Part shown: piece by piece, positions 1,864-17,006 of the stretch | How positions within the stretch are numbered: the stretch's first letter is position 1 | Layout of the letters: each line of letters starts with the position of its first letter | The notes under the pieces: generated by a model | Told to the model about the DNA's origin: nothing | The model's database searches: none | What the model saw: the letters and a program-made list of their open reading frames with translations, nothing else | Assembly (NCBI GenBank): GCA_030694005.1 | Contig: JAUXZG010000224.1 | Span: 1 to 43,587, forward strand | DNA from: Desulfobaccales bacterium | GTDB lineage: Bacteria; Desulfobacterota; Desulfobaccia; Desulfobaccales; 0-14-0-80-60-11 | Reading direction: 5' to 3' | DNA length: 43,587 bases | Position numbers and translations under genes: made by a program

Positions 1864-3195
1864 CTACCCTTCCACTTTCTGGCCGATGTGGAAGTAAGTA
1901 AATCCCAGTTTAGCCATCTTGGCCGGGTTGTAGATATTGCGGCCGTCAAAGATAACCGGGGTTTTCATCAGGGATTTCATCCGGTCGAAATCCGGTTCCC
2001 GAAATTTGGTCCATTCGGTGGCGATGAGCAGGGCCTCGGCCCCCTCCAGGGCCTCGTAGCCGGTGGCGGTAAAGCTGATGGCCCGGTTCTCCCCCAGGTA
2101 CTGGCGGGTGGCCGGTATAGCCTGGGGATCATAGGCTTTGAGGCGCACCCCCATCTCCAACAGCCTGGAAATGAGGGTGAGGGCCGGGGCCTCCCGGATA
2201 TCATCCGTCTGGGGCTTGAAGGAGAGGCCCCAGAGGGCGAAGACCCGCCCTTTGAGCTCATCCTTATAATATTTCAGGATGGTGTCGATAAAAATGGCGC
2301 GTTGATCTAGATTAACGGCTTCCGCGGCCGCCAGCAGGCGGGGGGTATAACCCCGGGACTGGGCGGTATGGATCAGGGCCTGCATATCTTTGGGGAAGCA
2401 AGAACCGCCGTAGCCCAGCCCGGGGAAGAGGAACAGGTTGCCGATGCGGGGGTCCGAGCCGATACCCTGGCGCACCATGGCGATATCCGCGCCGGTGCGG
2501 GCGCAGATGTTGGCCATCTCATTGATAAAAGAAATTTTGGTGGCCAGAAAGGCGTTGGCGGCGTACTTGGTCAATTCCGCCGAGACCACGTCCATGATGA
2601 TGATGGGATGGTTGGTGCGCACAAAGGGGGCATAGAGTTCCTTCATCAGCTCCGCCACCCGGACATCGTCGCAGCCCGCGACGATGCGATCCGGCTTCAT
2701 GAAATCATCCAGGGCCGTGCCTTCTTTGAGGAACTCCGGGTTAGAGACCACGTCAAATTCTAAGTTCTCTCCCCGGGCTTTAAGTTCTTTAGAAATGACC
2801 TGCCGGACTTGCGCGGCGGTGCCCACCGGTACGGTGGATTTCTCCACAATCACCTTATAGCCGTTCATGTGGCGGCCGATATCTTTGGCCACCTGCAGCA
2901 CCATGGACAGATCGGCGGAGCCGTCCTGATCCTGAGGGGTGCCCACCGCGACGAAGATGACCAGGCTTTCTTGGACTGCGGAGGCCAGCTCCGTGGTGAA
3001 AAACAGGCGTTTTTCCTGACAATTGCGCTTTACATAATCATCCAAGCCGGGTTCATAGATGGGGATGCGCCCTTTTCTCAAGGCCTTCACCTTGGCAGCA
3101 TCCGCATCTACACAGATCACTTCATTGCCCATCTCGGCAAAGCAGGCCGCGGTCACCAGGCCCACATAGCCTGCGCCGATTATTGCCAGTTTCAT
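1864..3195 (-). CDS. ugd: UDP-glucose 6-dehydrogenase
   Basis: It oxidises UDP-glucose to UDP-glucuronate with two NAD+, feeding LPS or exopolysaccharide synthesis. The 443-aa protein begins with the Rossmann motif MKLAIIGAGYVGLVT. It carries VEKSTVPVGT (about 118-126), SNPEFLKEG (about 151-159) and the catalytic cysteine motif GYGGSCFPKD (Cys266). The substrate-binding C-terminal domain is complete. The start at 3195 is preceded by a strong AAGGAGG. It lies 45 bp downstream of lptD on the same strand, which suggests co-transcription. It differs from the dehydrogenase at 17007-18338, which belongs to the UDP-N-acetylhexosamine branch. Confidence 0.95.
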   Translation of the reverse strand: MKLAIIGAGYVGLVTAACFAEMGNEVICVDADAAKVKALRKGRIPIYEPGLDDYVKRNCQEKRLFFTTELASAVQESLVIFVAVGTPQDQDGSADLSMVLQVAKDIGRHMNGYKVIVEKSTVPVGTAAQVRQVISKELKARGENLEFDVVSNPEFLKEGTALDDFMKPDRIVAGCDDVRVAELMKELYAPFVRTNHPIIIMDVVSAELTKYAANAFLATKISFINEMANICARTGADIAMVRQGIGSDPRIGNLFLFPGLGYGGSCFPKDMQALIHTAQSRGYTPRLLAAAEAVNLDQRAIFIDTILKYYKDELKGRVFALWGLSFKPQTDDIREAPALTLISRLLEMGVRLKAYDPQAIPATRQYLGENRAISFTATGYEALEGAEALLIATEWTKFREPDFDRMKSLMKTPVIFDGRNIYNPAKMAKLGFTYFHIGQKVEG

Positions 3196-3240
3196 AAGAT
3201 TTCCTTACCTCCTTGGCGGTACCGTCTTTTAGGCCTCAAC

Positions 3241-5523
3241 TCAGAAAGAATCCGGGCTTTCTTGGCCGCGCTTGCCCTCTTCCGGGAAGCGCACCGGCGA
3301 CCGTTTTAATCTCTCACCTAATCCTGGGATGAAAAAGGTAAACCCGACTCTCTTATCGTCCGGCCGTTCGGTGTAAGAGAGAACCACTCCCAGGCATTGG
3401 CGTTGCAAAACCAGTCCATATCGCTTTTCCAATCTTTTGTCGGTTTGAAAAGTATGGCCGTAGGTGACCCAGGTTTTCACCGACTGCATAAGATTTAAAT
3501 AGGTCATCACATTAATTTGTTGGGCGAAATCTTTAATAAAAATGTAATCCAGGCTCAGAAAATTCTGCTTCCGGGCGTCTTGGAGAACCGCCTTGAAATT
3601 GGCTCTGCTAAACCCATCCTCGTAAGTAGAGACCCCCATGCCCATCCCCAAAGTAATTTGCCGGAAAGGATTATATTCCGCCTCCCCCAAGAAGTCGGAG
3701 AAGCGGTGGTGGCGCAGGTTGGTGCCGTCCAGGGCCATGCTGGAAGTGTTGAAGAAGGCGCTCTGGCTCAGACGCAGCCAGAGGAGGTCCGTCACCGTGG
3801 CCTGCCCCTGGCGGTTCTGGTCGCGCTTCAAGATATCGCTGCCGATACTGTAGGTCAGGGCATTCACGCCTCCCAAGGGGTCGTCCCCCTCCCGCACCGG
3901 CAGGTTGCGGTTAGCCTTTACCACCCAACCCTGATCAAAGGGTTCGAAGTTGGGATAACGATTGGCCTCATAACGGGGCATATTCCAATAGGTTACTTCT
4001 GGACGCAGGATATGCCGATAAAATCGGGTGGCCCCGGCTTCCCGACCGTAATCCCGGGACCAGGCGCTGGCTAAAGAAACCTTGGAATCAAAGAGCTGGC
4101 GATCGATATATTGCTCCGGAGGAGCCTCCCGGCCGGTGGGGTCTGTCTGGAGTTTCCCCTGGTTGCTGTGGTCCACCCGAAACAGGGTCTCCCTAAAACC
4201 CGTTCGGGAGCTGAAGGAGAGGCCGGCTAGGGGCTGACCTTGCAGCCACAATTGGGGATGAAGGTCCAGACGGTCGCCGTTCATGCCATGGTCCTGATGA
4301 AAATAGCCATAGGAGGAATCCAGACCCACGAACAGCGGCAAGTTCCCCAGGCGCTGGGGAACGCTCTGCAGGGCCACTCCGGGCAGTCTCTGGTAAGGGC
4401 GTGGATCAGTCTGGTCCAGTCTCTGGTAATAACGGCCATAGGCGGTGAGATTGGCCCAGGAAAAATTGCGGGCCACCAGGAGGTTGGAAACCCGAGTGGG
4501 CACCTCCTCTTGTTCCAGGTCCCGGCCCATTTCCTGGACAAGGTCCCGGGAATAACGATTGAGGCCCATATAGCCGAAATTAAAGTCTTTGAGATAGGCG
4601 GCGTCGCTGACATGGTCCACGGTGAGGCGCATACTGACATCGTTGGGCAAGTCTTGATTCGTCATCCCCGCGGCCCAATAACGGTGAGGGGTAGGGACTT
4701 TCTGAAATTCATGGTCACTCAAGTAGAAGAGACGGAAGTTACTGGCCGTATCCTGGTGCCCCCGCTGGCGAAACTCCCCGCCCTGCATATACCCCCGATT
4801 GGTTAGATAGGTCTGATAAAAAGTGGCATCGGCATGATTGTTTATGGCCCAATAAAAGGGGAGTTCCACTACCGTGCCGCCGGCCCGGTGCTGCCCGAAA
4901 GAAGGCATGAGAAACCCGGTCTGACGGGTGGTCATGACCGGCAAGACGGCAAAAGGGACATAGAGGACCGGCACTCCCGACACCCGCACCAGATTATCCC
5001 GGCTGGTGGCATAGCCCTCCAGGACCACGGTGAGAGTGCGGGCCGAAAAACTCCAGGCCGGCAGGTCCGCATCGCAAGTGGTGACCACCGACCTCTCGGC
5101 ATAATAGGAATTTTCGCCGACTTTGCGGATCAAGGCGCTTTCTATGCGGAAGTGGTTTCTTTTCAAAAAGAGCCGGGCCTCGTGCATCTCGCCACAGCGG
5201 GTGGCCAGGTTGAATTGCCCCTCCTGGCCGGTAAAGATATCTTCCTCCATGACTATCACCACATTGCCCTGTAACCAAGCACTTTTGGTGACCTCATTGA
5301 CCAGGACCCGGTCGGCGCTGAGACGCCGGTCACCCTGCCGGATCTCTACGCGCCCCTGGGCCTCATAAGTATGGGCCTCGGTGTCATAAGTAAGTTTCTC
5401 CGCCCGGATCCTCCAGGGGCCGCCTTCAAAGCGTTCAGACTTGAAGAGCTCCAGCTCCGCGGCCCCGGCGCTGCCCAGGCTTAGCAAAAAAACCAGAACC
5501 CCCCAGATCCAGTACCGTAACAT
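3241..5523 (-). CDS. lptD: LPS-assembly outer membrane protein LptD
   Basis: LptD is the outer-membrane barrel that, with LptE, inserts LPS into the outer leaflet. The 760-aa product starts with a signal peptide (hydrophobic residues 5-20, cleavage likely after SAGA). An OstA/LptA-like periplasmic domain follows (about 30-140: LTYDTEAHTYEAQGRVEI, RLSADRVLVNE). The family-typical VVTTCDADLPAWSF comes next, then VPFAVLP and a long beta-barrel rich in aromatic residues. The start is preceded by AGGAGATAGGG. Only one Cys (QRQCLG) lies in the C-terminal region, where E. coli LptD has an adjacent pair, so its disulfide pattern must differ. It is the first gene of the minus-strand unit lptD-ugd-hldE. 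Confidence 0.93.
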   Translation of the reverse strand: MLRYWIWGVLVFLLSLGSAGAAELELFKSERFEGGPWRIRAEKLTYDTEAHTYEAQGRVEIRQGDRRLSADRVLVNEVTKSAWLQGNVVIVMEEDIFTGQEGQFNLATRCGEMHEARLFLKRNHFRIESALIRKVGENSYYAERSVVTTCDADLPAWSFSARTLTVVLEGYATSRDNLVRVSGVPVLYVPFAVLPVMTTRQTGFLMPSFGQHRAGGTVVELPFYWAINNHADATFYQTYLTNRGYMQGGEFRQRGHQDTASNFRLFYLSDHEFQKVPTPHRYWAAGMTNQDLPNDVSMRLTVDHVSDAAYLKDFNFGYMGLNRYSRDLVQEMGRDLEQEEVPTRVSNLLVARNFSWANLTAYGRYYQRLDQTDPRPYQRLPGVALQSVPQRLGNLPLFVGLDSSYGYFHQDHGMNGDRLDLHPQLWLQGQPLAGLSFSSRTGFRETLFRVDHSNQGKLQTDPTGREAPPEQYIDRQLFDSKVSLASAWSRDYGREAGATRFYRHILRPEVTYWNMPRYEANRYPNFEPFDQGWVVKANRNLPVREGDDPLGGVNALTYSIGSDILKRDQNRQGQATVTDLLWLRLSQSAFFNTSSMALDGTNLRHHRFSDFLGEAEYNPFRQITLGMGMGVSTYEDGFSRANFKAVLQDARKQNFLSLDYIFIKDFAQQINVMTYLNLMQSVKTWVTYGHTFQTDKRLEKRYGLVLQRQCLGVVLSYTERPDDKRVGFTFFIPGLGERLKRSPVRFPEEGKRGQESPDSF

Positions 5524-5689
5524 CCCTATCTCCTGAAGGCCGTGACTCCTGGAATCGCCGGATCATACCACATGGCCCCCCCATCTTTCAAAAAAGTCGT
5601 GGCCTGGGTGAGCCAAGACTTTTTCAGGAACTAGAAAGCGGCAGAGCCTGGGCCTCAGCAATGGAAGGGCCCCTCGCCACCAACCGCGG

Positions 5690-6103: not shown

Positions 6104-7777
6104 ATGGATGCAGATTGTGGGATATTGGTGGTAAGTCGCCACGGTAAGCTGTTGGCCGCCAACCCCATGGCGGAGTCCCTTCTCGCTCGCCCTCTGCCCT
6201 CCGGTAGTCTCCTGGAGGCCGATTGCTCGCTGACCCGTTCCCTCTCCCGGTATGGCCACCCCATCTGGGAAATGCTGAGTCGTGGGGAGGAAGAACACGG
6301 ACTGTTGCAGGTAGATGAGCTAACGGGAACCGGCATTTTTTACAGGTGCATCCCCCTTTTCAACGAGGAGAATATGGTCACGGGCACGGTCATCACCTTG
6401 GAAAGAAGGAGTGACAAAGCCCTGAGCCAGGCCCTTAATTTCCTGGGTCTGACCCCCGATGAGATCATGGACCAGATTCCGGAGGGGGTGTTTGTGGTAA
6501 ACACCCGGTGGCAACTCAGTTATTTTAACCACACCGCCCAGGAAATCACCGGGTATTCCCGGGACGAAGCCATGGGCAAGTTTTGCTGGGACATCTTCCG
6601 GACCGAGCTGTGTCACAAGAAATGCCCTATGCGCATCTCCATGAGCACCGGCCAGGCCCTGATGGACCAGGAAGTGGAAATCCTCACCAAATCGGGTCAA
6701 AAAAAATTGATCCTGCTTAATACCGCGCAGATCAAAAAGCCGGGCAACCGGGTGCTGGGAGGGGTGCAGACCTTTCGCGACCTGAGCGGCCTCCAGTACC
6801 CAGAGGAAGGGAAGGGTCGTGAGGTTATTGCAGACATCGTGGGGGTCAGTCCCCGGATGCAGGAAATTATCCAAAGCCTTCCCATCATTGCCGCCTCCGA
6901 CTCCAATGTGCTGATCCTGGGCGAGTCGGGAACCGGCAAAGAGCTCATCGCCCGGGCCATTCACCTGCTGAGCCCCAGGCGTAAAGGGCCCTTTCAGGCC
7001 ATCAATTGTTCGGCGATCCCGGAGACTTTACTGGAGTCCGAGCTTTTTGGCTACGAGCGGGGGGCTTTCACGGGGGCCGTGAGCAGCAAGGCGGGAAAGT
7101 TTGAGTTGGCCAAGGGCGGCACGCTATTTCTGGATGAGATCGGCGACCTCCGGCCGGAGCTCCAGGTGAAGCTGCTGAGGGTGTTGGAGGGTAGAGGCTT
7201 CGAGCGGGTGGGCGGCAATCGGAAAATCCCCCTGGAGGCCAGGATTGTTGCGGCCACCAATGTGGAACTGCAGGAAGCCATGCGACAGGGCCGGTTCCGG
7301 GACGACCTTTACTACCGGCTCTTCACCGTGCCCATCCACCTGCCGCCCCTGCGGGAAAAGCGGGAAGATATCCCCATCCTCGTCAAGTACTTCCTGGAAC
7401 AGCTCAACCAAAAATTTAACAAGAGAATCAGGGGGGTGGACCCCAAGGTGATGAAAATTTTCTGCCGCCACCCCTGGCCCGGCAATGTGCGGGAAATGCA
7501 GCATGTCTTGGAATACTGCTTCGTCTTTGCCAAGGGCCCCTTCATCACCGAGCGTCATCTGCCTCACCTGGAAAGCGCCTGGGCCGGCAGAGAACTGGAG
7601 TCGCTGGATAGTTCCCTCAGCCCCTTACAGGCACTAGAACGAGAAACCATCCTCAAGGCCCTGGAGCGCGTGTACGGCAGCAAGCACGAGGCGGCTCGGG
7701 TGCTGCAAATCAGCCGCAGCAAGCTGTGGAGAAAAATGCGGTCCTATGAGATCAGGGATGCTGAATTTAAAAAATGA
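6104..7777 (+). CDS. PAS-domain sigma-54-dependent transcriptional activator
   Basis: A 557-aa enhancer-binding protein. Residues 1-100 form a PAS-like sensor fold (ILVVSRHGKLLAANPMAESLL). A second PAS domain (about 115-230) carries the Cys-containing stretch C161-x8-C170-x3-C174-P, a pattern I associate with redox- or metal-responsive PAS regulators of anaerobes. The AAA+ domain (about 245-480) has Walker A GESGTGKE (273-280), the sigma-54 contact loop GAFTGA (320-325), Walker B LFLDEIGDL and the R-finger region. A Fis-type helix-turn-helix lies at the C-terminus (HEAARVLQISRSKLWRKM). No response-regulator receiver domain is present, so sensing is direct. A stop at 6074 and the lack of other start codons fix the start, although no clear Shine-Dalgarno is seen. 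The downstream operon has its own sigma-54 element and is the likely target. Confidence 0.93.
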   Translation: MDADCGILVVSRHGKLLAANPMAESLLARPLPSGSLLEADCSLTRSLSRYGHPIWEMLSRGEEEHGLLQVDELTGTGIFYRCIPLFNEENMVTGTVITLERRSDKALSQALNFLGLTPDEIMDQIPEGVFVVNTRWQLSYFNHTAQEITGYSRDEAMGKFCWDIFRTELCHKKCPMRISMSTGQALMDQEVEILTKSGQKKLILLNTAQIKKPGNRVLGGVQTFRDLSGLQYPEEGKGREVIADIVGVSPRMQEIIQSLPIIAASDSNVLILGESGTGKELIARAIHLLSPRRKGPFQAINCSAIPETLLESELFGYERGAFTGAVSSKAGKFELAKGGTLFLDEIGDLRPELQVKLLRVLEGRGFERVGGNRKIPLEARIVAATNVELQEAMRQGRFRDDLYYRLFTVPIHLPPLREKREDIPILVKYFLEQLNQKFNKRIRGVDPKVMKIFCRHPWPGNVREMQHVLEYCFVFAKGPFITERHLPHLESAWAGRELESLDSSLSPLQALERETILKALERVYGSKHEAARVLQISRSKLWRKMRSYEIRDAEFKK

Positions 7778-7865
7778 GACGCCTTTTGCAATTGTGCCAC
7801 ATTTCTTTAAAGACCTAACTATCAGATTTAACAGAATTTAATTAATAAATGCCCTAATTTGTTTT

Positions 7866-8020
7866 AATTTCGCTCATTTTTTGCCCCGCCCAATTTTTCT
7901 CTCTTTTCAAAAATAATCTTCTCTTAAAATTTCGCGACATTTTGCCTTTTTGATAACTATATGAATATGCTGGTATTATTTGATATGCTTTAAAAGATGT
8001 TTTAATTCCGCCCACTTTTA
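7866..8020 (+). promoter_or_regulatory. Candidate enhancer region with three related motifs
   Basis: In the 368-bp AT-rich spacer between the activator and its presumed target operon, three similar sequences occur at about 7866-7883, 7928-7944 and 8004-8020. They share AATT(T/C)CGC followed by a T-run, and their centres are 62 and 76 bp apart. They lie roughly 70-225 bp upstream of the -24 element at 8091, the usual range for sigma-54 activator sites. No gene is seen in this spacer. Confidence 0.5.
7926..7943 (+). promoter_or_regulatory. Near-perfect 18-bp palindrome, likely activator binding site
   Basis: AAAATTTCGCGACATTTT matches its own reverse complement at 16 of 18 positions around the centre TCGCGA. 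Dimeric Fis-type HTH activators bind sites of this kind. It is the most symmetric of the three related motifs and sits about 150 bp upstream of the -24/-12 element. Assigning it to the activator encoded just upstream is inference. Confidence 0.5.
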
Positions 8021-8090
8021 TTCCTGCCTGAAAGTTCAATATCTCTCCGCCATCGCCAAAAAACTAATGATGTCAATGTGATAAGCTATT

Positions 8091-8106
8091 TGGCCCCCTC
8101 TTTGCT
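8091..8106 (+). promoter_or_regulatory. Sigma-54 promoter of the NuoEFG-like/HdrA operon
   Basis: TGGCCC-N5-TTGCT, with GG at 8092-8093 and GC at 8104-8105 exactly 10 bp apart. It deviates from TGGCAC at one base. Transcription would start near 8118, about 28 bp before the GTG start of the first operon gene, leaving room for the AAAGGAGA ribosome site. Confidence 0.75.
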
Positions 8107-8145
8107 CTTATAGGAAGCAAAAGAGAGCCAAAAGGAGATAGGACC

Positions 8146-8610
8146 GTGAGCGTATCTTTCGAAAAAATTGAAGCCATATTGGACCGTTTCCCGCCGCAGC
8201 CGGAACATCTGGTCAGCGCTTTCCAGGAGATCCAAGCCGAGTTCAAGTATATTCCCGCGGACGCCTTCAATGCGGTGTGCGATCACCTGGGGGTGCCTCG
8301 GTCGCAAGGCTGGGCGGTGGCCACCTTTTTCAAGTCTTTCAGTTTTGAGCCTAAGGGAATCCATGAGATCAAGGTCTGTCTGGGCACCGCCTGTCACCTT
8401 AAGGGCGGGGCCCGCCTGGTAGAGGGCCTGGAACGGGAACTGAAGGTGGAACGGGGCCATACCACCGGTGACTTACTCTTTACCTTGGATACGGTCAACT
8501 GTGTGGGAGCCTGCGCTCTGGCCCCGGTAGTGGTAGTGGGTGAAGAGTATCAAGCCAATACCAATTCCCGGAAGCTCAAAAAGCATCTGAAAAAGGTTGC
8601 GGCTGAGTAG
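8146..8610 (+). CDS. NuoE-like [2Fe-2S] subunit of an NADH-dependent oxidoreductase
   Basis: A 154-aa protein of the NuoE/HoxE/HydC (24-kDa) family, a thioredoxin-fold [2Fe-2S] protein that relays electrons from the NuoF flavin subunit. It has the N-terminal helical part (LVSAFQEIQAEFKYIP) and four cluster cysteines in the order CLGTAC ... CVGAC. The start is GTG with AAAGGAGA in front of it. It is the first gene of a four-gene operon, with the next gene 24 bp downstream. Such subunits occur in complex I, in bifurcating hydrogenases and in Hdr-linked complexes. The neighbours here favour the last. Confidence 0.92.
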   Translation: MSVSFEKIEAILDRFPPQPEHLVSAFQEIQAEFKYIPADAFNAVCDHLGVPRSQGWAVATFFKSFSFEPKGIHEIKVCLGTACHLKGGARLVEGLERELKVERGHTTGDLLFTLDTVNCVGACALAPVVVVGEEYQANTNSRKLKKHLKKVAAE

Positions 8611-8634
8611 AACCCGCACACAAGGGGTGAGGTC

Positions 8635-10536
8635 ATGCGACAAATTAGCACTGCCTTAAAACTGGATGAAAATCGGCTCGCTTCCCCGGCGGCCCTGGCG
8701 GCCTATCGGGAAAGCATCCTGGCCGAGAGGGATCCCAACCGGCCCATCATCATTGTCTGCCACGGCACCGGCTGTCTGGCGACCAATAGCCCGAAAGTCG
8801 CCGACACCCTGCGCCGGGCCATCGCCGCGGCCGGGCTCCAAGCTCAGGTGGTCCCGGAGATCAAGACTACCGGCTGTCACGGCTTTTGCTCCCGGGGCCC
8901 CTTGGTGATTTTCCACCCCACCGGCTTATTCTACCAAAGAGTTCAGCCGGAGGATGTCGAGGAAATCGTCCAGACAACCCTCCTGGAAGGGAAGCCGGTG
9001 GAGCGTCTGCTCTACGTAGATCCGAACACCGGGGAGCACATCGTGCACGATCACGATATCCCCTTTTACAAATATCAGCAGCGTCTGGTGCTGCGGAACA
9101 TTGGCAAGATCGACCCGGCTGACATCCGGGACACCATTGCTGCGGGCGGTTACCAGTCCCTGGCCAAGGTCCTGGCCGGCATGACCCCGGAGGAAGTCAT
9201 TGCTGTGGTGGAGACCTCGGGGTTGCGCGGCCGGGGCGGCGGCGGCTTCCTGGCCGGACGGAAATGGCGCCTGGCCGTGGAAAATGTTCGAAAGAGCCCC
9301 GGGCCGGTCTACGTAGTGGGCAATGGCGACGAAGGGGACCCCGGAGCCTTCATGGACCGGACTCTGATGGAGGGCGATCCCCATGCCGTCCTGGAGGGGA
9401 TGATCATCGGCGCCTATGCCCTGGGCGCCCAACAGGGCTACATTTACGTGCGACTCGAATACCCCCTGGCCGTCCGGCACCTCTCGGTAGCCATCGAGCA
9501 GGCCCGGGCCCTGGGACTCCTGGGTCAAAACATCCTGGGCACGGGCTTTGATTTCGATATCAAGATCAACCGGGGCGCGGGGGCCTTTGTCTGCGGCGAA
9601 GAGACCGCCCTGATCGCCTCGCTGGAAGGGCGGGTGGGGGAACCCAAAACCAGGCCGCCCTATCCGGCTGAAAAGGGACTCTGGAACCGGCCCACCATCA
9701 TTAACAACGTGGAGACCTGGGGAAACGTCCCCCAGATCATCGAAAAGGGGGCCGATTGGTTTGCCGGCATGGGGGTGCCCCACAGCACCGGCACCAAGAT
9801 CTTTTCCCTGGTGGGCAAGGTTAACAATGTGGGTTTGGTGGAAGTGCCCATGGGCATCACCCTGGGTCGCATCGTCGAAGAGATCGGCGGCGGGGTGCCG
9901 GGCCGAGACGAGTTCAAGGCCGTCCAGACCGGCGGTCCCTCTGGAGGTTGTATCCCCTGGGAACTCAAAGATACCCCCGTGGACTTTGACTCCTTGACCC
10001 GAGTTGGATCGATGATGGGGTCGGGGGGCATGATCGTCATGGATAAACGGGACTGCATGGTGGATGTGGCCAAGTATTTCCTGGAATTTCTCATGGATGA
10101 ATCCTGTGGCAAGTGCGTTCCCTGTCGGATGGGGCTCGAGCGGATGCATGCCATGTTGGGAGAGTTTACCATGGGCAAGGGGAGCCTGGAGGACCTGGAC
10201 GAGCTTCACTCTCTGGCCGAAGGGATAAAGGACGGCTCCCTTTGCGCCCTGGGGGGGACCGCTCCTAATCCGGTGCTTTCCACTATCCGTTACTTCCGGG
10301 ATGAATATGAAGCCCATATTCTCCACAAGACCTGTCCCGGCAAGGTTTGCCGGGAATTGATCACTTATGCCATCAACTCGGAACTCTGTAACGGCTGTAC
10401 CCTTTGCGCCCGAGAATGTCCGGCGGGGGCGATTACCGGGGTGAAAAAGAAACCTCACGAAATCAACAGCTCTCTGTGTATCAAATGTGGCGTCTGCTTC
10501 GAGGTCTGCAAACCCGAAGCGGTGGAAATCTTGTAA
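8635..10536 (+). CDS. NuoF-like FMN/NAD(H)-binding subunit with N- and C-terminal ferredoxin domains
   Basis: A 633-aa flavoprotein of the NuoF/HydB/HndC type. It is the NAD(H) entry point and, in bifurcating enzymes, carries the FMN. Residues 35-115 are a thioredoxin-like [2Fe-2S] domain (C42, C47, C81, C85). The NuoF core follows, with the glycine-rich GRGGGGFLAGRKW (about 199-211) for NADH and the FMN site GDEGDPGAFMDR. The SCGKCVPCR motif near residue 490 binds the N3-type [4Fe-4S] cluster. The C-terminal tail has two [4Fe-4S] motifs (CNGCTLCARECP, CIKCGVCFEVC), as in HydB/HndC but not in complex I NuoF. The start is preceded by GGGGTGAGG. It is followed 14 bp later by the NuoG-like gene. 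Confidence 0.94.
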   Translation: MRQISTALKLDENRLASPAALAAYRESILAERDPNRPIIIVCHGTGCLATNSPKVADTLRRAIAAAGLQAQVVPEIKTTGCHGFCSRGPLVIFHPTGLFYQRVQPEDVEEIVQTTLLEGKPVERLLYVDPNTGEHIVHDHDIPFYKYQQRLVLRNIGKIDPADIRDTIAAGGYQSLAKVLAGMTPEEVIAVVETSGLRGRGGGGFLAGRKWRLAVENVRKSPGPVYVVGNGDEGDPGAFMDRTLMEGDPHAVLEGMIIGAYALGAQQGYIYVRLEYPLAVRHLSVAIEQARALGLLGQNILGTGFDFDIKINRGAGAFVCGEETALIASLEGRVGEPKTRPPYPAEKGLWNRPTIINNVETWGNVPQIIEKGADWFAGMGVPHSTGTKIFSLVGKVNNVGLVEVPMGITLGRIVEEIGGGVPGRDEFKAVQTGGPSGGCIPWELKDTPVDFDSLTRVGSMMGSGGMIVMDKRDCMVDVAKYFLEFLMDESCGKCVPCRMGLERMHAMLGEFTMGKGSLEDLDELHSLAEGIKDGSLCALGGTAPNPVLSTIRYFRDEYEAHILHKTCPGKVCRELITYAINSELCNGCTLCARECPAGAITGVKKKPHEINSSLCIKCGVCFEVCKPEAVEIL

Positions 10537-10550
10537 GGGGAGGGCGGGGC

Positions 10551-11123
10551 ATGATCAGCTTCACTATTAACGACCGGGAAGTAACAGGCCAAGAAGGCTG
10601 GACCATCCTGGAGGTGGCCAAGTGGCACGGCATCGACATCCCCACCCTCTGCTACCATGGCGCCGTGGAACCGTATGGCGCCTGCCGGCTCTGCGTGGTA
10701 GAGGTGGATGATGGGCAGCAGCGGCGGTTGGTAGCCTCCTGTCTCCATCCCGTTCAAGAAGGGCTCAAGGTGCAGACCGACAGCGAGCGGGTGAAAAACG
10801 TGCGCCGCTGGATTTTGCAAATGATGGTGGATGAACATCCCGGCTCCCAGAGAATCAAGGAGCTGGCCAAGTCCTATGGCGTGAAGGAATCCAGGTTTAA
10901 GAGTGATCGCGTTGAAGATTTGTGTATTTTATGCGGTCTCTGCGTCCGGGCCTGCGATGAGGTGGTGGGCGCGCGGGCCATCTCCCTCGGCAACCGGGGA
11001 GTGCGCAAAGAGGTGGCCACCACCCATCGTCTTCCCAGCCCGGAATGTGTTGCCTGTGGGACCTGCCTCTATGTCTGTCCCACGGGCGCGATGGAACAAT
11101 TATTCGACCGGATCAGGGGTTGA
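10551..11123 (+). CDS. Short NuoG-like iron-sulfur subunit
   Basis: A 190-aa electron-wiring protein matching only the N-terminal part of NuoG/HoxU. A plant-type [2Fe-2S] motif (C34, C45, C48, C64) is followed by two [4Fe-4S] ferredoxin motifs (C125/C128/C131/C135 and C166/C169/C172/C176). Between them, NuoG relatives normally have a His-x3-Cys-x2-Cys-x5-Cys cluster. Here the HP of that motif survives (H96-P97) but none of the three cysteines does, so that cluster is absent. There is no molybdopterin or H-cluster domain, so the protein is not itself a formate dehydrogenase or hydrogenase. The ATG at 10551 follows AGGGGAGGG. The frame is open further upstream, but that part overlaps the nuoF-like gene. 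Confidence 0.88.
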   Translation: MISFTINDREVTGQEGWTILEVAKWHGIDIPTLCYHGAVEPYGACRLCVVEVDDGQQRRLVASCLHPVQEGLKVQTDSERVKNVRRWILQMMVDEHPGSQRIKELAKSYGVKESRFKSDRVEDLCILCGLCVRACDEVVGARAISLGNRGVRKEVATTHRLPSPECVACGTCLYVCPTGAMEQLFDRIRG

Positions 11124-11168
11124 CCCTGAAAAATCCTGGTCGCGGCAGGCGTGAATAAGGAGAAGGAC

Positions 11169-13595
11169 ATGAAGAACAACGAAGCCAAAATCGGCGTTTT
11201 CCTTTGCGAGTGCGGCGGAAAAATCAGCAGCCGCATAGACCTGCCGGCGGTGGGCGAATTGCTCAAGTATGAACCCTGGGCGCATCTGGAGATTTCCCCT
11301 TACCCTTGCCTGGCCCCCGGTCTGGAAGCCATGCAGGCGAAGGTGCAGGAAAAGGGGCTCAACCGGATCCTGGTGGGCGGCTGTTCTTCCCGAGTGATGA
11401 AAAAGAAGTTCGCCGCGGCCCTGGCGCCGGTGGGGATCCACGAGTACCAGGTGGAGATGGTTAACTTAAAGGACCACGTGGCTGCCGTCCACGAAGACTC
11501 TCCGCAAAAGCTGGCCCGCAAGGCCGCGGCCCTCCTGGCCGGGGGAATGGCCGGGCTTCGGCTCCTGGAGCCTTACGAACCCGTCTCGGTACCCTTTCAG
11601 GGGCCGGTCCTCATCATGGGCGGCGGCATCTCCGGTTTCGCGGCGGCCCGGGAACTGGCCCGCAAGGGGATGGAGAGCCGGCTCTTTTCCCCCGCCCGGG
11701 ATCCAGGCCAGGTCCTGGCACAACTCCCGCGAACTTTTCCCGGCAGCCAGCTTTTCTCTAAAGAACTGACAGAACTCCTCCGGGAAGTGTTCACCAGCCC
11801 CCTGGTCAAGGTTTTACCTGACCTGCCGGTGGAATATGTGGTGGGACACGTGGGCGATTATCGCCTGGGGTTGCGCCAATCCGACGGCACGGTGACCGAG
11901 GTGACCGGCTCGGCCTTGATCCTGGCCCTGGATCGGGAGTTCGTCCCCGGAGATTACGAATATATCGGGGGCGGCGAGCGGGTGTGCGATCTGCTGGAGA
12001 TGGAGGAACGCCTGGCCCAGGGCGAAATTGAGGCCGGCAAAGTGGTCTTCTGGGTGAACAGCCCGGAACACGGTAAAGCCGCCCAGCAGTTCAACGCAGT
12101 GGCCGCCTGGCGGAACAGCCTGGTGCTGGCCCGGAATCATCCCCGGGTAAAACCCACCGTGCTTTACCCGGCCAACATTACCCTGCCGCTCAGCGGCGCC
12201 GACCTGGCGGAGGCGCGGGGGTGCGGCATTGCCCTGCAGTCTTACGCCCCGGAGGTCCACCCCGTGGTCCAGTCCGGATACCTGACTTACTTCAGCCCTC
12301 AAGACCATCTGGAGCACGAACTGGAATGGGACAATCTGGTGGTCTCCATGGTGCCGGGAGAGCCGGCGGCCAAAACCCAGGAACTGCTCCGGTGGCTGCC
12401 CGTGTACTCGGAAAACGGGGGCCGGCTCAGAAAAACGCAACTGAAACTCAAGCCCGATCAGGTGGCCGATGAGACCATTTTTCTGACGGGATCAGCCGGC
12501 GAACTTAAGGACCTGAACGAAGTCTTGAGACAGGGCAAGAAGGCGGCCCAAGGGGTGTTGCACCTCCAGGAAAAGGCCAAGAGGGGCGCCCTGGTGAGCC
12601 CGGTGGTGGTCACCATCGACCAGGACCTCTGTGAAGGCTGCGGCCTCTGCACCGAAATCTGTCCCTGCGGTGGAGTGGAGCACGTCAAACCCGGCAGCGG
12701 CCCGGTGCCGCGCCACGCGGACAGCCACCTCTGCAGCGGCGGCGGCACCTGTGCGGCCACTTGCCCTTACGAAGCCGTCAAGATGCTCAATAATACCGCC
12801 CAGCAACTGGAGGCGCGCCTCAAGGCGGTGCTCTCCCGGATGCAGGAAAATGAGGCGCTGGGGTTCATTTGCAGTTGGGGCGGCCTGGGCGCCGCGGATC
12901 TGGCCGGAGTTAAGGGGCTTTCCTACCCCCGCGGGGTATATCTAATCCCGGTGAACTGCCTGGGTTCCATTGATCCCGCCATCTTTTCCATGGCCTTTGT
13001 GAACGGGGCGAACAGCATCCTCCTGGGCGGCTGTACGCCCACGGCCTCCTGCCACTATGTCTACGGGGTGGATCATTCCTGGGTTCGGGTCAATATCATG
13101 AAAAAGCTCCTCTCCCTGGCCGGTCTGGAGCGGAGACGGATCACCATGGGATATGTGGACGTCAACCAGCCGGAGGCCTTTGTGCGCATGGTGGAGTCCC
13201 ACCTGGACGGGATGCATAAATTGGCCCCCATTAACCGGGACGAAAAAACCAAGACCAAACTCTGGGCCATCCATGCTACGCTCCACCGTCCCCGGGTGCG
13301 CTGGGTTTTGGGGACGAGTTTGAGAAGGCCCACCGAGAAGGAGTTTCCCGGCGAGCAAGTCAACGCCGTAGATGCCGATGAGACCATGCTGGACGTGCTC
13401 CGGGAGGAGTTTCTGGCCTCCAGAATCCTCAAGGCCATCCATGACCAACCTCTCAACCCGCCACAAATTGCCCAAAGCATGGATGAGCCGGTGAAGACAA
13501 TTACCCCCATGTTGACTGATATGGCCAAGGAGGGTCGGGTTACCATTAAGAGCTGGGAAGGCGGCTATCCCCTCTATGCTACCGGTAAGCCGTGA
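11169..13595 (+). CDS. HdrA-MvhD fusion, flavin/iron-sulfur electron-transfer subunit
   Basis: An 808-aa protein. About 1-135 is the HdrA N-terminal Cys domain (CECGG at 13-17, PCLAPG, GGCSSRVMKKKF). About 145-470 is a thioredoxin-reductase-like FAD domain with GGGISGFAA (151-159). About 480-540 is a ferredoxin domain, and about 562-690 is MvhD-like (GADLAG-type region, NCLGSIDP, SCHYVYG). The last 100 residues look like a small winged helix. HdrA carries the bifurcating FAD of heterodisulfide reductase complexes, and MvhD links it to a partner. Ferredoxin motif 1 is complete (C488/491/494/498), but motif 2 reads CSGGGTC with Gly at 525 in place of Cys. In the MvhD part the usual CxWC reads CSWG. 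The ATG at 11169 has AAGGAGAAGG in front, so it is preferred over the GTG at 11151. No hdrB or hdrC follows. Confidence 0.88.
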   Translation: MKNNEAKIGVFLCECGGKISSRIDLPAVGELLKYEPWAHLEISPYPCLAPGLEAMQAKVQEKGLNRILVGGCSSRVMKKKFAAALAPVGIHEYQVEMVNLKDHVAAVHEDSPQKLARKAAALLAGGMAGLRLLEPYEPVSVPFQGPVLIMGGGISGFAAARELARKGMESRLFSPARDPGQVLAQLPRTFPGSQLFSKELTELLREVFTSPLVKVLPDLPVEYVVGHVGDYRLGLRQSDGTVTEVTGSALILALDREFVPGDYEYIGGGERVCDLLEMEERLAQGEIEAGKVVFWVNSPEHGKAAQQFNAVAAWRNSLVLARNHPRVKPTVLYPANITLPLSGADLAEARGCGIALQSYAPEVHPVVQSGYLTYFSPQDHLEHELEWDNLVVSMVPGEPAAKTQELLRWLPVYSENGGRLRKTQLKLKPDQVADETIFLTGSAGELKDLNEVLRQGKKAAQGVLHLQEKAKRGALVSPVVVTIDQDLCEGCGLCTEICPCGGVEHVKPGSGPVPRHADSHLCSGGGTCAATCPYEAVKMLNNTAQQLEARLKAVLSRMQENEALGFICSWGGLGAADLAGVKGLSYPRGVYLIPVNCLGSIDPAIFSMAFVNGANSILLGGCTPTASCHYVYGVDHSWVRVNIMKKLLSLAGLERRRITMGYVDVNQPEAFVRMVESHLDGMHKLAPINRDEKTKTKLWAIHATLHRPRVRWVLGTSLRRPTEKEFPGEQVNAVDADETMLDVLREEFLASRILKAIHDQPLNPPQIAQSMDEPVKTITPMLTDMAKEGRVTIKSWEGGYPLYATGKP

Positions 13596-13623: not shown

Positions 13624-16146
13624 TCAAATTAACGACAGCCTCTCGTCGTAAATGAATTCCCGGGTATGCCTGGCAACCCTTTCCGGTTCCAGGTGAATCC
13701 TGGCGGTGCCGGTCTCCATGCCGGCCCGGGCCACCGCCTCGGCGACGGCCGGCGGCACCCTAAAATCCATAGCGCCCGGCAGGATATAACCGGGGCTCAA
13801 TTTATCGCCTACCAAATCGGCGATAGCGTGGGCCGCCGCCATATTCATGGCATCATTGATGGCTCTCGCCCGGATGTCCAGGGCGCCGCGAAAGATGCCG
13901 GGAAAGGCCAGACAGTTGTTCACTTGATTGGGGAAATCCGATCGGCCCGTGGCCACCACCGCCGCTCCGGCCATTTTCGCCTCGTCGGGGTGGATTTCCG
14001 GGTCAGGATTGGCCAGGGCAAAGACAATGGGGTCCTTAGCCATGGATTTCACCATTTTCTGGGTCAGCACGTTGGGCCCGGAGAGCCCGATAAAGACTTC
14101 CGCCCCCCTCAAGGCGTCCGCCAGGCTGCCCTTTTGCTTTTCAGCGTTGGTGATTTGCGCCAACTCTTTCTTGATGAAATTCATCCCCTTAAGACGCCCC
14201 TGGTAAATAACCCCGGTGGTATCGCAGATAATGATGTTTTGGGCGCCGGCCAGGAGCAAAAGTTTGGTCACGGCGATGGCGGACGCGCCGGCGCCGCTGA
14301 AGACAATCCTTACCTCTGCCAGTTTACGGTCCACGATCTTCAAGGCATTCATCAAGGCGGCCATGGCGACCACCGCAGTGCCGTGCTGATCGTCATGAAA
14401 TACCGGAATATCCAGGCGTTCGCCTAATTTTCGCTCAATTTCAAAACAACGGGGCGACGAGATATCCTCCAGGTTAATCCCGCCGAAGGCCGGAGAGATG
14501 TTTTCCACCAGTTTAACCACCAAATCGGTTTCCTGGGTACTGATGCAGATGGGAAAGGCTTCGACGCCCCCGAAGGTTTTAAACAGGACGGCTTTCCCCT
14601 CCATGACCGGCAGTGCCGCCCGGGGGCCGATATTCCCCAGGCCCAAAACCGCGCTGCCGTCGGTAACTATGGCCACCAGGTTATTTTTGCAGGTATAGTC
14701 ATAGGCCCCCATGGGGTCCTTAAGAATTTTCTGACAAACCTCGGCCACCGCCTCCGGGGAATAGAGCCGTTTATAAATGACTTCATCCTTGATGGGCACC
14801 TTGGTGTAAACCTGCACACACCCCTGATAGCGGCGATGCAGTTCCAGGGCTTCCTCGTTAAGGCTCATTTTGCCGTAATCCTGGCCTTCCGAGGGCAGCC
14901 AGGCCAGTTCTCCCTCGTAAATATATCTTTCCGTCCGCTCTTGAACTCTTTCCGGAGACATTTCTGCGGGAGTCAGTTGCGCCGCGCCGGTTTCCTGAGC
15001 CGCCTGGGCTACCGCTCTGGCCACCACCGGGGAGATTCTCCAGTCCATTTGCCGGGGAATAATATTGCTGGGAGACAATTCTTCTTCCGGAATCATGTCC
15101 GCCACGGCCCGGGCCGCGGCCAGGAACATCTCGATGTTGACCCTTTCCGCCCCCACATCCAGGCATCCCCGGAAAAATCCCGGAGTTACTAGAGATGAGC
15201 GTATCTGGTTTTCGCTGTCCGCCTGGCCGGTGGCCACCACTTTGGCGCCTCCGGCTTTGGCTTCGGCTTCGCTGATTTCCGGCTCCGGCAGAGCCAGGGC
15301 AAAGACGATGGGGTCTTTGGCCATACTGGCGACCATTTCCCCATTGACCAATCCTCCTGCGGACAGGCCGATAAAAACATCCGCGCCTTTTATGACCTCA
15401 GCCAGGCTGCCTCTGACGTCCCGGGGTTTAACCAGACGGGCGATTTCCGATTTGGCCCAATTCATTCCTACCAAGCGGTAAACGCGCAGCGCCCCATGCC
15501 GGTCGCAAAGGACAATATCTTCGATGCCCGCCACCAGCAGTCCTTTGGCCACCCCAATGCCGGCGGCGCCGGCGCCGTTGATGACTATCTTCACTTCGGT
15601 CAAGCTTTTCCCCACCACCTTGAGGGCGTTATATAGGGCAGCCAGCACAATTATGCCCGCGGCATGGTTTTCATGGTGCAGCACCGACACCCTCACCGCT
15701 TTCCTGATCCTGTTCTCAATAGTGAAGCATTTGGGGGCGGCAATACTTTCCAGACAAAATCCTCCAAAGGAAGGGGCGAGGGAACGGACAATTTCTACTA
15801 TCTCATCGGCATCTTGAGTCAGCAGCGCAATGGGCACGGCATCCACGTTGGCAAAAGTTTTATAGATAACCGACTTGGCTTCCAACTTGGGCAGGGCTGC
15901 TAAAGCCCCGATATTGCCAAATTCATAAACGCGACTGCCATCCGTGATCAGGGCAATGGAATTGCCCCGGCAGGTGTAGCGGTAGGAGGCGATGGGGTGC
16001 TTTTCGATCTCCCGGCAGACGGCCCCCACTCCGGGCGTGTAGATCCGACTCAACACGGACACATCCCTGATGGGCATCTTGCTTTTGATGCCAATTAAGC
16101 CGCGATAACGCCGCCGATAAGCTAAGGCGTCTGATTCGGTAACCAT
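13624..16146 (-). CDS. Tandem-duplicated malic enzyme (two fused malic enzyme units)
   Basis: An 840-aa protein made of two consecutive bacterial-type malic enzyme units (about 1-425 and 427-840), each close to the normal family length. Malic enzyme decarboxylates malate to pyruvate with NAD(P)+. The C-terminal unit keeps the core residues: LEDISSP (E560, D561), FHDDQHGTA (583-591), Lys518 in MEGKAVLFK, and NPDPEI. The N-terminal unit reads LESIAAP, LHHENHAAG and LPEPEI, so the metal-site Asp residues and an Asn are changed. It keeps YTPGV and a canonical GAGAAGIG nucleotide motif, whereas the C-terminal unit has YSPEA and GAGASA. The N-unit may be a regulatory or pseudo-enzyme domain. The ATG at 16146 fits the family N-terminus and has GAGG upstream. 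The frame is open to 16302. It converges on the HdrA gene with a 28-bp gap. Confidence 0.9.
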   Translation of the reverse strand: MVTESDALAYRRRYRGLIGIKSKMPIRDVSVLSRIYTPGVGAVCREIEKHPIASYRYTCRGNSIALITDGSRVYEFGNIGALAALPKLEAKSVIYKTFANVDAVPIALLTQDADEIVEIVRSLAPSFGGFCLESIAAPKCFTIENRIRKAVRVSVLHHENHAAGIIVLAALYNALKVVGKSLTEVKIVINGAGAAGIGVAKGLLVAGIEDIVLCDRHGALRVYRLVGMNWAKSEIARLVKPRDVRGSLAEVIKGADVFIGLSAGGLVNGEMVASMAKDPIVFALALPEPEISEAEAKAGGAKVVATGQADSENQIRSSLVTPGFFRGCLDVGAERVNIEMFLAAARAVADMIPEEELSPSNIIPRQMDWRISPVVARAVAQAAQETGAAQLTPAEMSPERVQERTERYIYEGELAWLPSEGQDYGKMSLNEEALELHRRYQGCVQVYTKVPIKDEVIYKRLYSPEAVAEVCQKILKDPMGAYDYTCKNNLVAIVTDGSAVLGLGNIGPRAALPVMEGKAVLFKTFGGVEAFPICISTQETDLVVKLVENISPAFGGINLEDISSPRCFEIERKLGERLDIPVFHDDQHGTAVVAMAALMNALKIVDRKLAEVRIVFSGAGASAIAVTKLLLLAGAQNIIICDTTGVIYQGRLKGMNFIKKELAQITNAEKQKGSLADALRGAEVFIGLSGPNVLTQKMVKSMAKDPIVFALANPDPEIHPDEAKMAGAAVVATGRSDFPNQVNNCLAFPGIFRGALDIRARAINDAMNMAAAHAIADLVGDKLSPGYILPGAMDFRVPPAVAEAVARAGMETGTARIHLEPERVARHTREFIYDERLSLI

Positions 16147-17006
16147 TTCTGCTATACCTCGAAAGGCTAAAGGTAGCTTATTTGTCTCCTGACTTGGCCC
16201 CGGGTCCAGGAAAATGATGGTCGCGTCGGAAAACCGGCCCGGACCCTGCTGGTTGAGGCGACCGTGGTCCTTACCCCACCTTACGCGGGTACCATTGACC
16301 ATCCCGTGACATTTTAAGGGTTCATGTAGGGCTTGAACCCTTTTGGATTAAGATATTAACCCTTTACTTTCTGGAATACAATCCTTCAGCTTCCGTCTCC
16401 AGGCATAACAGCCGAAATAAAGACGCCGTAAGGTTAAATTATGTTAATAGCCTGATGAACTTAAGTCTGGCCTGCAGAGCAGACTTCCCTCTTGACTCGG
16501 ACCTTCACCTGGGGGCATGTTTTTGTTTCTTCTATTTAGGCAGGTCTCCTTTTGGGCCCCCTCCCGAGCTTTGATAACCAAAATGAATATCAATTTCAAA
16601 ATATTATACTACTTGACCCCGCCGCCGGTGGCCTGATTCTCTTTCGTAGACGCCAATAAGCAAGGCGTCGGCCAATTCTGCTTGGCAAAATATTCAGCCT
16701 CATGAATCAGCGAGGTGAGCCTCTAATCCATGACCCGAGGAAAACCATGGGGATAAAACCCAGCGGCCTAGTTCTTGCTTAAATCATTAAAAATCTATAT
16801 AAGTTAACCTTAATGAAAATTAGATTTAGGCTCTTTAAGCGGGGATGGCAGATGGGGGGATCCCCACAAAATGATTGAGCCACCTACACGGTTCAGATAC
16901 ACTGTCAAGGCAATGGCTACCTTTCCCCTGGGGCGGCAGCTATCAGCGTGATGGCTTGCTTTTAGATGAGAATCCCTTAAGTAAAAGAATTGGCTAACGA
17001 GAGACT
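16147..17006. other. Long intergenic region with an inverted repeat
   Basis: No convincing gene. The first 156 bp (to 16302) are an open extension of the malic enzyme frame that I judge to be non-coding. A 9-bp inverted repeat (AAGGGTTCA/TGAACCCTT) lies at 16316-16342. An AT-rich patch at about 16571-16610 contains AAAATGAATATCAATTTCA, loosely like a Fur-type 7-1-7 repeat (about 10 of 14 positions), too weak to call. The malic enzyme and the divergent dehydrogenase gene must both have their promoters here. I could not fix either. Confidence 0.5.

Follow-up and report, generated by a model that had tools for sequence, protein, structure and literature searches.

An HdrA-MvhD fusion encoded behind BfuCBA in a Desulfobaccales bacterium lacks two cluster cysteines and carries a candidate replacement ligand

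The stretch of DNA analyzed here (the window) comprises 43,587 nucleotides (nt) of contig JAUXZG010000224.1 from a Desulfobaccales bacterium (assembly GCA_030694005.1). It contains a compact operon in which the gene for a sigma-54-dependent activator is followed by the genes for BfuC, BfuB and BfuA and, in last position, by a gene encoding a fusion of HdrA and MvhD (Table 1). The fusion lacks cysteines in its ferredoxin and MvhD motifs and in the HdrA core; these losses are shared by a large protein family, nearly all members of which carry an additional cysteine in the ferredoxin domain. An in-frame GTG is present at 11151, 5' of the open reading frame (ORF). Sequence matches in the PDB are methanogen HdrA and MvhD chains, and the best Foldseek matches of the AlphaFold2 (AF2) model, which has a mean predicted local distance difference test (pLDDT) value of 82.7 (alignment of 23 sequences), are HdrA structures. 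The protein thus has the HdrA fold and the expected domain order, with MvhD fused C-terminally. The degenerate core matched HdrA, the HdrA-like protein 6tjr of Hyphomicrobium and thioredoxin reductase folds.

Table 1. Features of the operon and of the HdrA-MvhD fusion (positions in the window; FAD, flavin adenine dinucleotide; FMN, flavin mononucleotide; NADH, reduced nicotinamide adenine dinucleotide).
Feature	Positions	Strand	Evidence
Sigma-54-dependent PAS/AAA+ activator, first gene of the neighbourhood	6104..7777	+	Pfam Sigma54_activat E 1.3e-68, PAS, Fis-type helix-turn-helix
Sigma-54 (-24/-12) promoter-like site TGGCCCCCTCTTTGCT, 39 nt 5' of the BfuC start codon	8091..8106	+	10/12 consensus positions
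BfuC (NuoE/HydC-like), one [2Fe-2S] cluster (C1)	8146..8610	+	PF01257 E 2e-40
BfuB (NuoF/HydB-like) FMN subunit, clusters B1-B5, predicted NADH/ferredoxin bifurcation core	8635..10536	+	PDB match 7t2r_B
BfuA (short HoxU/NuoG-N-like) Fe-S subunit	10548..11123	+	Fer2_4 and 4Fe-4S domains
HdrA-MvhD fusion, 808 amino acids	11169..13595	+	Translation, Pfam, PDB sequence matches, HdrA fold
HdrA N-terminal Fe-S domain; C13, C15, C47, C72 retained	11169..11573	+	Conserved in family and in 13/13 canonical fusions
Degenerate HdrA thioredoxin-reductase/FAD-type core; GGG loop kept, ATG replaced by LD, core-cluster Cys absent	11586..12593	+	Alignment, Foldseek
Residues 295, 305, 309, 310 (canonical core-cluster Cys positions), all replaced	12051..12098	+	Family alignment
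C-terminal 2x[4Fe-4S] ferredoxin domain, ligands altered	12606..12794	+	Pfam Fer4/Fer4_7
C500 codon TGC; gained Cys, candidate replacement ligand	12666..12668	+	Family alignment
G525 codon GGC; second Cys of ferredoxin motif 2 lost	12741..12743	+	Translation and family alignment
MvhD (FlpD) domain	12846..13244	+	PF02662 E 1.1e-29; matches 5odc_D and 7bkb_F
G571 codon GGC; second Cys of CxWC lost	12879..12881	+	Translation and family alignment
C622-x5-C628, insertion of one residue in the window's subclade	13032..13052	+	Family alignment
C-terminal extension, predicted helical, then winged-helix-like	13245..13592	+	AF2 secondary structure

The translation reads C488-x2-C491-x2-C494-x3-C498 for ferredoxin motif 1 and C522-S-G-G525-G-T-C528-x3-C532 for motif 2; in the MvhD domain, the first motif is C568-S-W-G571 and the distal pair C622-x5-C628. 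The two glycines and the altered spacing had been pointed out in an earlier description made from the letters of the window (the sequence-only reading), with which the translation agrees. Since codons 525 and 571 are both GGC, a selenocysteine (Sec) misread as stop or glycine is ruled out.

Homologues were searched for in 59 related genomes, which encode orthologues with 67-84% identity and paralogues with approximately 40% identity; the window genome has one of each. In 84,980 species genomes, a further scan found 80 named loci; as it was seeded with short peptide patterns of the family, it gives a biased census. The scan also returned canonical HdrA-MvhD fusions, which served as contrast (n = 13). 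Removal of near-copies (97%) left 68 family members. Residue 525 is glycine in 61 of them, glutamate in six and aspartate in one; residue 571 is glycine in 52, serine in eight and alanine in eight. Neither is a cysteine in any member, whereas both are cysteines in 13/13 canonical fusions. Archaeal, Chloroflexota and other Desulfobacterota fusions read CxxCxxC, CxWC (or CxYU) and C-x4-C, and the latter two motifs are likewise found in the stand-alone MvhDs of the window genome and its relatives. The C-x5-C spacing is restricted to ten of the 68 members, all from the window's subclade, and C-x4-C is present in the rest of the family and in all canonical fusions; on this distribution, the longer spacing is a later insertion within the subclade.

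Sequencing error or chance loss is ruled out by the presence of both losses in 68/68 non-redundant relatives, and with it the prospect, raised in the sequence-only reading, that close homologues might all have kept the cysteines. Decay of a single copy is ruled out as well: the window genome holds a paralogue with 40% identity (locus L002), whose operon is identical and which shows the same losses, with aspartate at 525 and serine at 571. To judge by the alignment, the missing cysteines 525 and 571 are fixed signatures of a large HdrA-MvhD family, in which the cultured Dethiosulfatarculus sandiegensis is represented. The alternative prospect, that this group always lacks them and uses another known ligand, holds for the lack; for the ligand there is a strong candidate only. 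Motif 1 had been described as intact, and its four cysteines are indeed present, but the description was understated: a fifth cysteine, C500 (C498-P-C500), lies two residues past C498 in the same ferredoxin domain. Position 500 is a cysteine in 65/68 members and phenylalanine or tyrosine in 13/13 canonical fusions. The three other members, which form one branch (L142, L144 and L157), have asparagine at 500 and also lack C525. In a maximum-likelihood tree, computed with a quick method and containing long branches, the cysteine and non-cysteine states are split by a single branch with a Shimodaira-Hasegawa-like approximate likelihood ratio test (SH-aLRT) value of 100.

In the standard 2[4Fe-4S] ferredoxin pattern, the last cysteine of motif 1, here C498, is a ligand of one cluster together with C522, C525 and C528. 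The complete pair of motifs is absent from all 68 members, as none has C525. However, with C525 lost and C500 gained, four cysteines are left for this cluster; since C500 is nearly invariant near motif 1, the cluster need not be lost but can be re-ligated. It is probably still a [4Fe-4S] cluster, with C500 as candidate replacement for C525. Alternatively, the cluster could be held by three cysteines, either as [3Fe-4S] or as a site-differentiated [4Fe-4S] cluster with a unique iron that has water, a carboxylate or no ligand in place of the cysteine, which would tune the potential or make a catalytic site. This is somewhat unlikely. It would fit the glutamate or aspartate at 525 in 7/68 members, among them the paralogue in the same genome, because aspartate at the second position of CxxCxxC is an exchangeable ligand in Pyrococcus furiosus ferredoxin, and it would also fit the three members without both C500 and C525. 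C500, however, never occurs in canonical fusions, lies two residues past C498 of the same cluster and is kept even in members with glutamate or aspartate at 525. A three-iron cluster, a changed potential or lost clusters, as suggested in the sequence-only reading, are thus possible but not the simplest explanation, given the gain of C500 and the cysteines kept in MvhD.

Canonical MvhD has five conserved cysteine or Sec residues (CxWC, MC and GCxxxxC). The window protein has a PF02662 domain, and four of the five are present in all family members, so that the five-residue set is incomplete. The [2Fe-2S] cluster of MvhD probably uses the remaining cysteines 568, 597, 622 and 628, four being the number needed. 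In stand-alone MvhDs (L012, L014, L086 and L089), Sec occurs at either of two cysteine positions, as CxYU (position of Gly571) or as GUHxGECHY (position of C622). Both variants were found in the window genome: the MvhD of L012 reads CRYU, with Sec at the position homologous to Gly571, and another stand-alone MvhD has Sec at the C622 position.

Wherever the flanks of a family locus are long enough, the genes for BfuC, BfuB and BfuA lie directly upstream of the fusion gene; the loci of the canonical fusions all lack this arrangement. The activator gene also keeps its place in nearly all of these family loci. A sigma-54 site (at least 9/12 consensus positions) was found 5' of BfuC in 36/45 family loci, compared to 1.9% of shuffled regions. 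All four cysteines of the C1 cluster are kept in 47/47 BfuC copies. The best PDB match of BfuB is HydB of the bifurcating NiFe-hydrogenase of A. mobile (7t2r_B, E 1e-227). The ligands of the B2 cluster (C474, H561, C567 and C572 in one protein, C438, H525, C531 and C536 in the other) align between the two and are conserved in 49/49 copies; the fifth B2 position is a threonine. BfuB has kept all of its cluster ligands. According to Schut et al. (2022, PMC9304861), nearly all bifurcating BfuB proteins have the B2 histidine and non-bifurcating homologues lack it. BfuA has 12 cysteines, which make up exactly one [2Fe-2S] and two [4Fe-4S] motifs, and no His-Cys3 motif; each cysteine is present in 60-61 of 61 copies. 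A BfuA without clusters A3 and A5 together with additional subunits defines the Bfu Type 2 group, to which the operon belongs by its sequence, with HdrA-MvhD as the extra subunit. The predicted activity of the complex is bifurcation between NAD(H), ferredoxin and a third substrate.

Comparison of the family loci did not reveal a further operon gene common to the whole family, and HdrBC is not encoded in the window's operon. A gene for an FrhB/FdhB-like flavoprotein of the coenzyme F420 type is located 29-155 nt 3' of HdrA-MvhD in the majority of the subclade's loci (e.g., 7800-8903 on the minus strand in L044 and 11866-12993 on the plus strand in L046), the subclade being that of the window; L117 is followed by such a gene too. 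The complex could thus be an F420- or FrhB-linked oxidoreductase in which this flavoprotein is the third-substrate subunit and was lost or relocated in the window organism. We regard this as unlikely, since neither the window's operon nor the 94.7%-complete genome has such a gene, save for a weak ferredoxin match (E 9e-4), and it is also missing next to L021 and in most of the wider family. DsrC is encoded in the window genome, which makes an acceptor linked to sulfite reduction possible. Benzoyl-CoA reductase (the Bam complex) is ruled out, as the whole genome, 94.7% complete, gave no PF02730 match (the tungsten aldehyde-oxidoreductase-type BamB). By eye, a gene with an N-terminus like NfnA/ferredoxin-NADP reductase was seen approximately 100-350 nt downstream in L138 and three other family loci.

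The most extensive changes were found in the HdrA core. The core-cluster cysteines at 295, 305, 309 and 310 (CVGSR...YCSRxCC) are present in 13/13 canonical fusions; in the family, positions 295, 305 and 309 are cysteines in 0/68 members and position 310 alone in 3%. The ligands of the core [4Fe-4S] cluster of bifurcating HdrA are therefore missing. In the flavin site, the ATG motif is replaced by LD (254/255), with D255 present in 68/68. A lysine at the flavin N5, K409 of M. thermolithotrophicus, has been proposed as mark of bifurcating HdrA (survey, PMC12054007). The family lacks it: lysine or arginine is absent from the aligned positions 339-343 in 68/68 members and present in 9/13 canonical fusions, in a locally gappy alignment. 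With the core-cluster cysteines gone and the flavin site degraded, HdrA is likely no longer flavin-bifurcating. That it still binds a bifurcating FAD, so that BfuABC would feed a second bifurcation site in series, as proposed for Bam-Bfu (Schut et al., 2022, PMC9304861), seems improbable: nearly all members retain the Rossmann GGG loop, the HdrA/thioredoxin reductase fold is predicted and an acidic residue around 277/279 is largely kept, but this has to be set against the loss of the four-cysteine set, the invariant D255, the missing lysine or arginine and the operon without HdrBC. Several core cysteines are lost, yet a decaying pseudo-HdrA that acts as scaffold only, without a redox role, is very hard to reconcile with N-terminal, ferredoxin and MvhD cysteines that are essentially invariant at an average identity of 47%, and with new invariant core residues (D255, F294, W314 and, in most members, C447). 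Residue 447 is a cysteine in 65/68 members and lysine or arginine in canonical HdrA; the window protein has lysine and L021 glutamine. The sequence-only reading had expected an electron path different from that of canonical HdrA-MvhD, and this is now well supported, mainly by the core-cluster and flavin-site losses, which it did not include.

Taken together, we consider it fairly probable that the operon encodes a Bfu-type NADH/ferredoxin bifurcating complex with HdrA-MvhD as a non-bifurcating electron-transfer arm, in which C500 stands in for C525. BfuC, BfuB, BfuA and HdrA-MvhD would form a soluble four-subunit complex under sigma-54 control that is found across the Desulfobacterota. BfuBC would exchange electrons with NADH and ferredoxin and be the site of bifurcation or confurcation, and BfuA would carry mid-potential electrons to or from HdrA-MvhD. 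HdrA would then be a wire and not a second bifurcating flavoenzyme, the order within the arm being the N-terminal [4Fe-4S] cluster, the C-terminal 2x[4Fe-4S] ferredoxin domain and the MvhD [2Fe-2S] cluster. The arm could reach its third substrate through an FrhB-like flavoprotein, as encoded in close relatives, or through HdrBC or some other partner whose gene lies elsewhere. Several observations weigh against this proposal. A flavin may still bind at the retained GGG loop, the three members with asparagine at 500 lack C525 all the same, and the confidence of the AF2 model is low (~60) around the ferredoxin domain. In addition, the coupling of positions 500, 525 and 571 has a single evolutionary origin and counts as one event rather than many independent ones, and a partner enzyme for the third substrate is missing from the window's operon. 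More tentatively, the complex may represent a widespread Desulfobacterota branch of the Bfu enzymes ("Hdr-Bfu"), in which HdrA, itself a known flavin bifurcator, was disarmed by the loss of its core cluster and flavin chemistry and rewired as arm of a different bifurcating core while a [4Fe-4S] ligand migrated from C525 to C500.

Several characterized systems resemble parts of this arrangement. Bam-Bfu, the class II benzoyl-CoA reductase complex BamBCDEFGHI, comprises a BfuABC module (BamIHG) and an HdrA-type module (Schut et al., 2022, PMC9304861). Both systems join BfuABC to an HdrA-type module, but BamB is absent from the window's operon and genome. HdrA and MvhD are fused here and the HdrA core ligands are absent; in the Bam complex, BamF is MvhD-like. 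HdrA2 of Methanosarcina acetivorans contains FAD, four Fe4S4 and one Fe2S2 clusters and bifurcates electrons from F420H2 with HdrB2C2 (PMC5296606). It shares the fusion architecture and the N- and C-terminal Fe-S domains; in the window protein, by contrast, the core-cluster cysteines are missing and the ligands of the ferredoxin and MvhD domains are changed, and its gene accompanies those for BfuCBA instead of HdrBC. By sequence, the window protein is homologous to HdrA2 and lacks the residues that define bifurcating HdrA. In Bfu Type 2 enzymes such as Wor-Bfu of A. mobile (PMC9304861), the BfuBC ligands are likewise complete and the short BfuA carries one [2Fe-2S] and two [4Fe-4S] clusters, whereas the third-substrate module here is HdrA-MvhD alone. 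The third-substrate types listed so far are Por, Codh, F420, Wor, Bam, Rub, Fdh, Mbh, Nuo, Nfn, FeFe and NiFe, with no Hdr-only type besides Bam (PMC9304861). In MvhAGD-HdrABC and ElpABC-HdrABC of methanogens (PMC12350162), electron-input subunits also feed the HdrA clusters, with onward connection to the MvhD [2Fe-2S] cluster; the window's complex differs in its predicted NADH/ferredoxin input via BfuA, the lack of HdrBC in the operon and the absent core cluster.

The HdrA-MvhD family of these sulfate-reducing-type bacteria is apparently undescribed: a literature search returned no account of an HdrA-MvhD/NuoEF operon in sulfate reducers, and a prior mention is possible, for example in Appel et al. 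(2021), on HdrA diversity, or in a Desulfatiglans supplement. If the proposal is correct, the Bfu and HdrA bifurcating machineries have merged and HdrA has lost its own chemistry, which would make the family a natural test of the residues that HdrA needs for bifurcation and, in its ferredoxin domain, a clean natural example of a ligand that has migrated. The energy metabolism of many uncultured sulfate-reducing-type bacteria would also gain a NADH/ferredoxin-coupled enzyme that has so far gone unrecognised. The label "CoB-CoM heterodisulfide reductase" would be misleading for genes of this kind; the window protein scores 292 bits with the HdrA2 model, against a cut-off of 1100.

A second Bfu-Hdr locus is present in the window genome (L174, G000:C2:1-9792). 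It encodes BfuB (114-2024) and then a 1087-residue ORF (2359-5622) in which BfuA is fused to part of an HdrA core and to a complete HdrA, followed by a stand-alone Sec-containing MvhD (GUHLGECHY); the canonical HdrA ligands are kept. This natural fusion supports a direct contact between BfuA and HdrA, and the kept ligands indicate that a Bfu-linked HdrA need not lose them.

A Pfam scan of HdrA-MvhD gave no match in the C-terminal extension, which is also present in the fusion of L036. Elsewhere in the window, a tandem malic-enzyme protein of 892 amino acids with two homologous halves is encoded on the minus strand (13624-16302). Where the second half has HDDQHGTA, HHENHAAG is found in the first, so that the N-terminal copy is possibly inactive or has a regulatory role.

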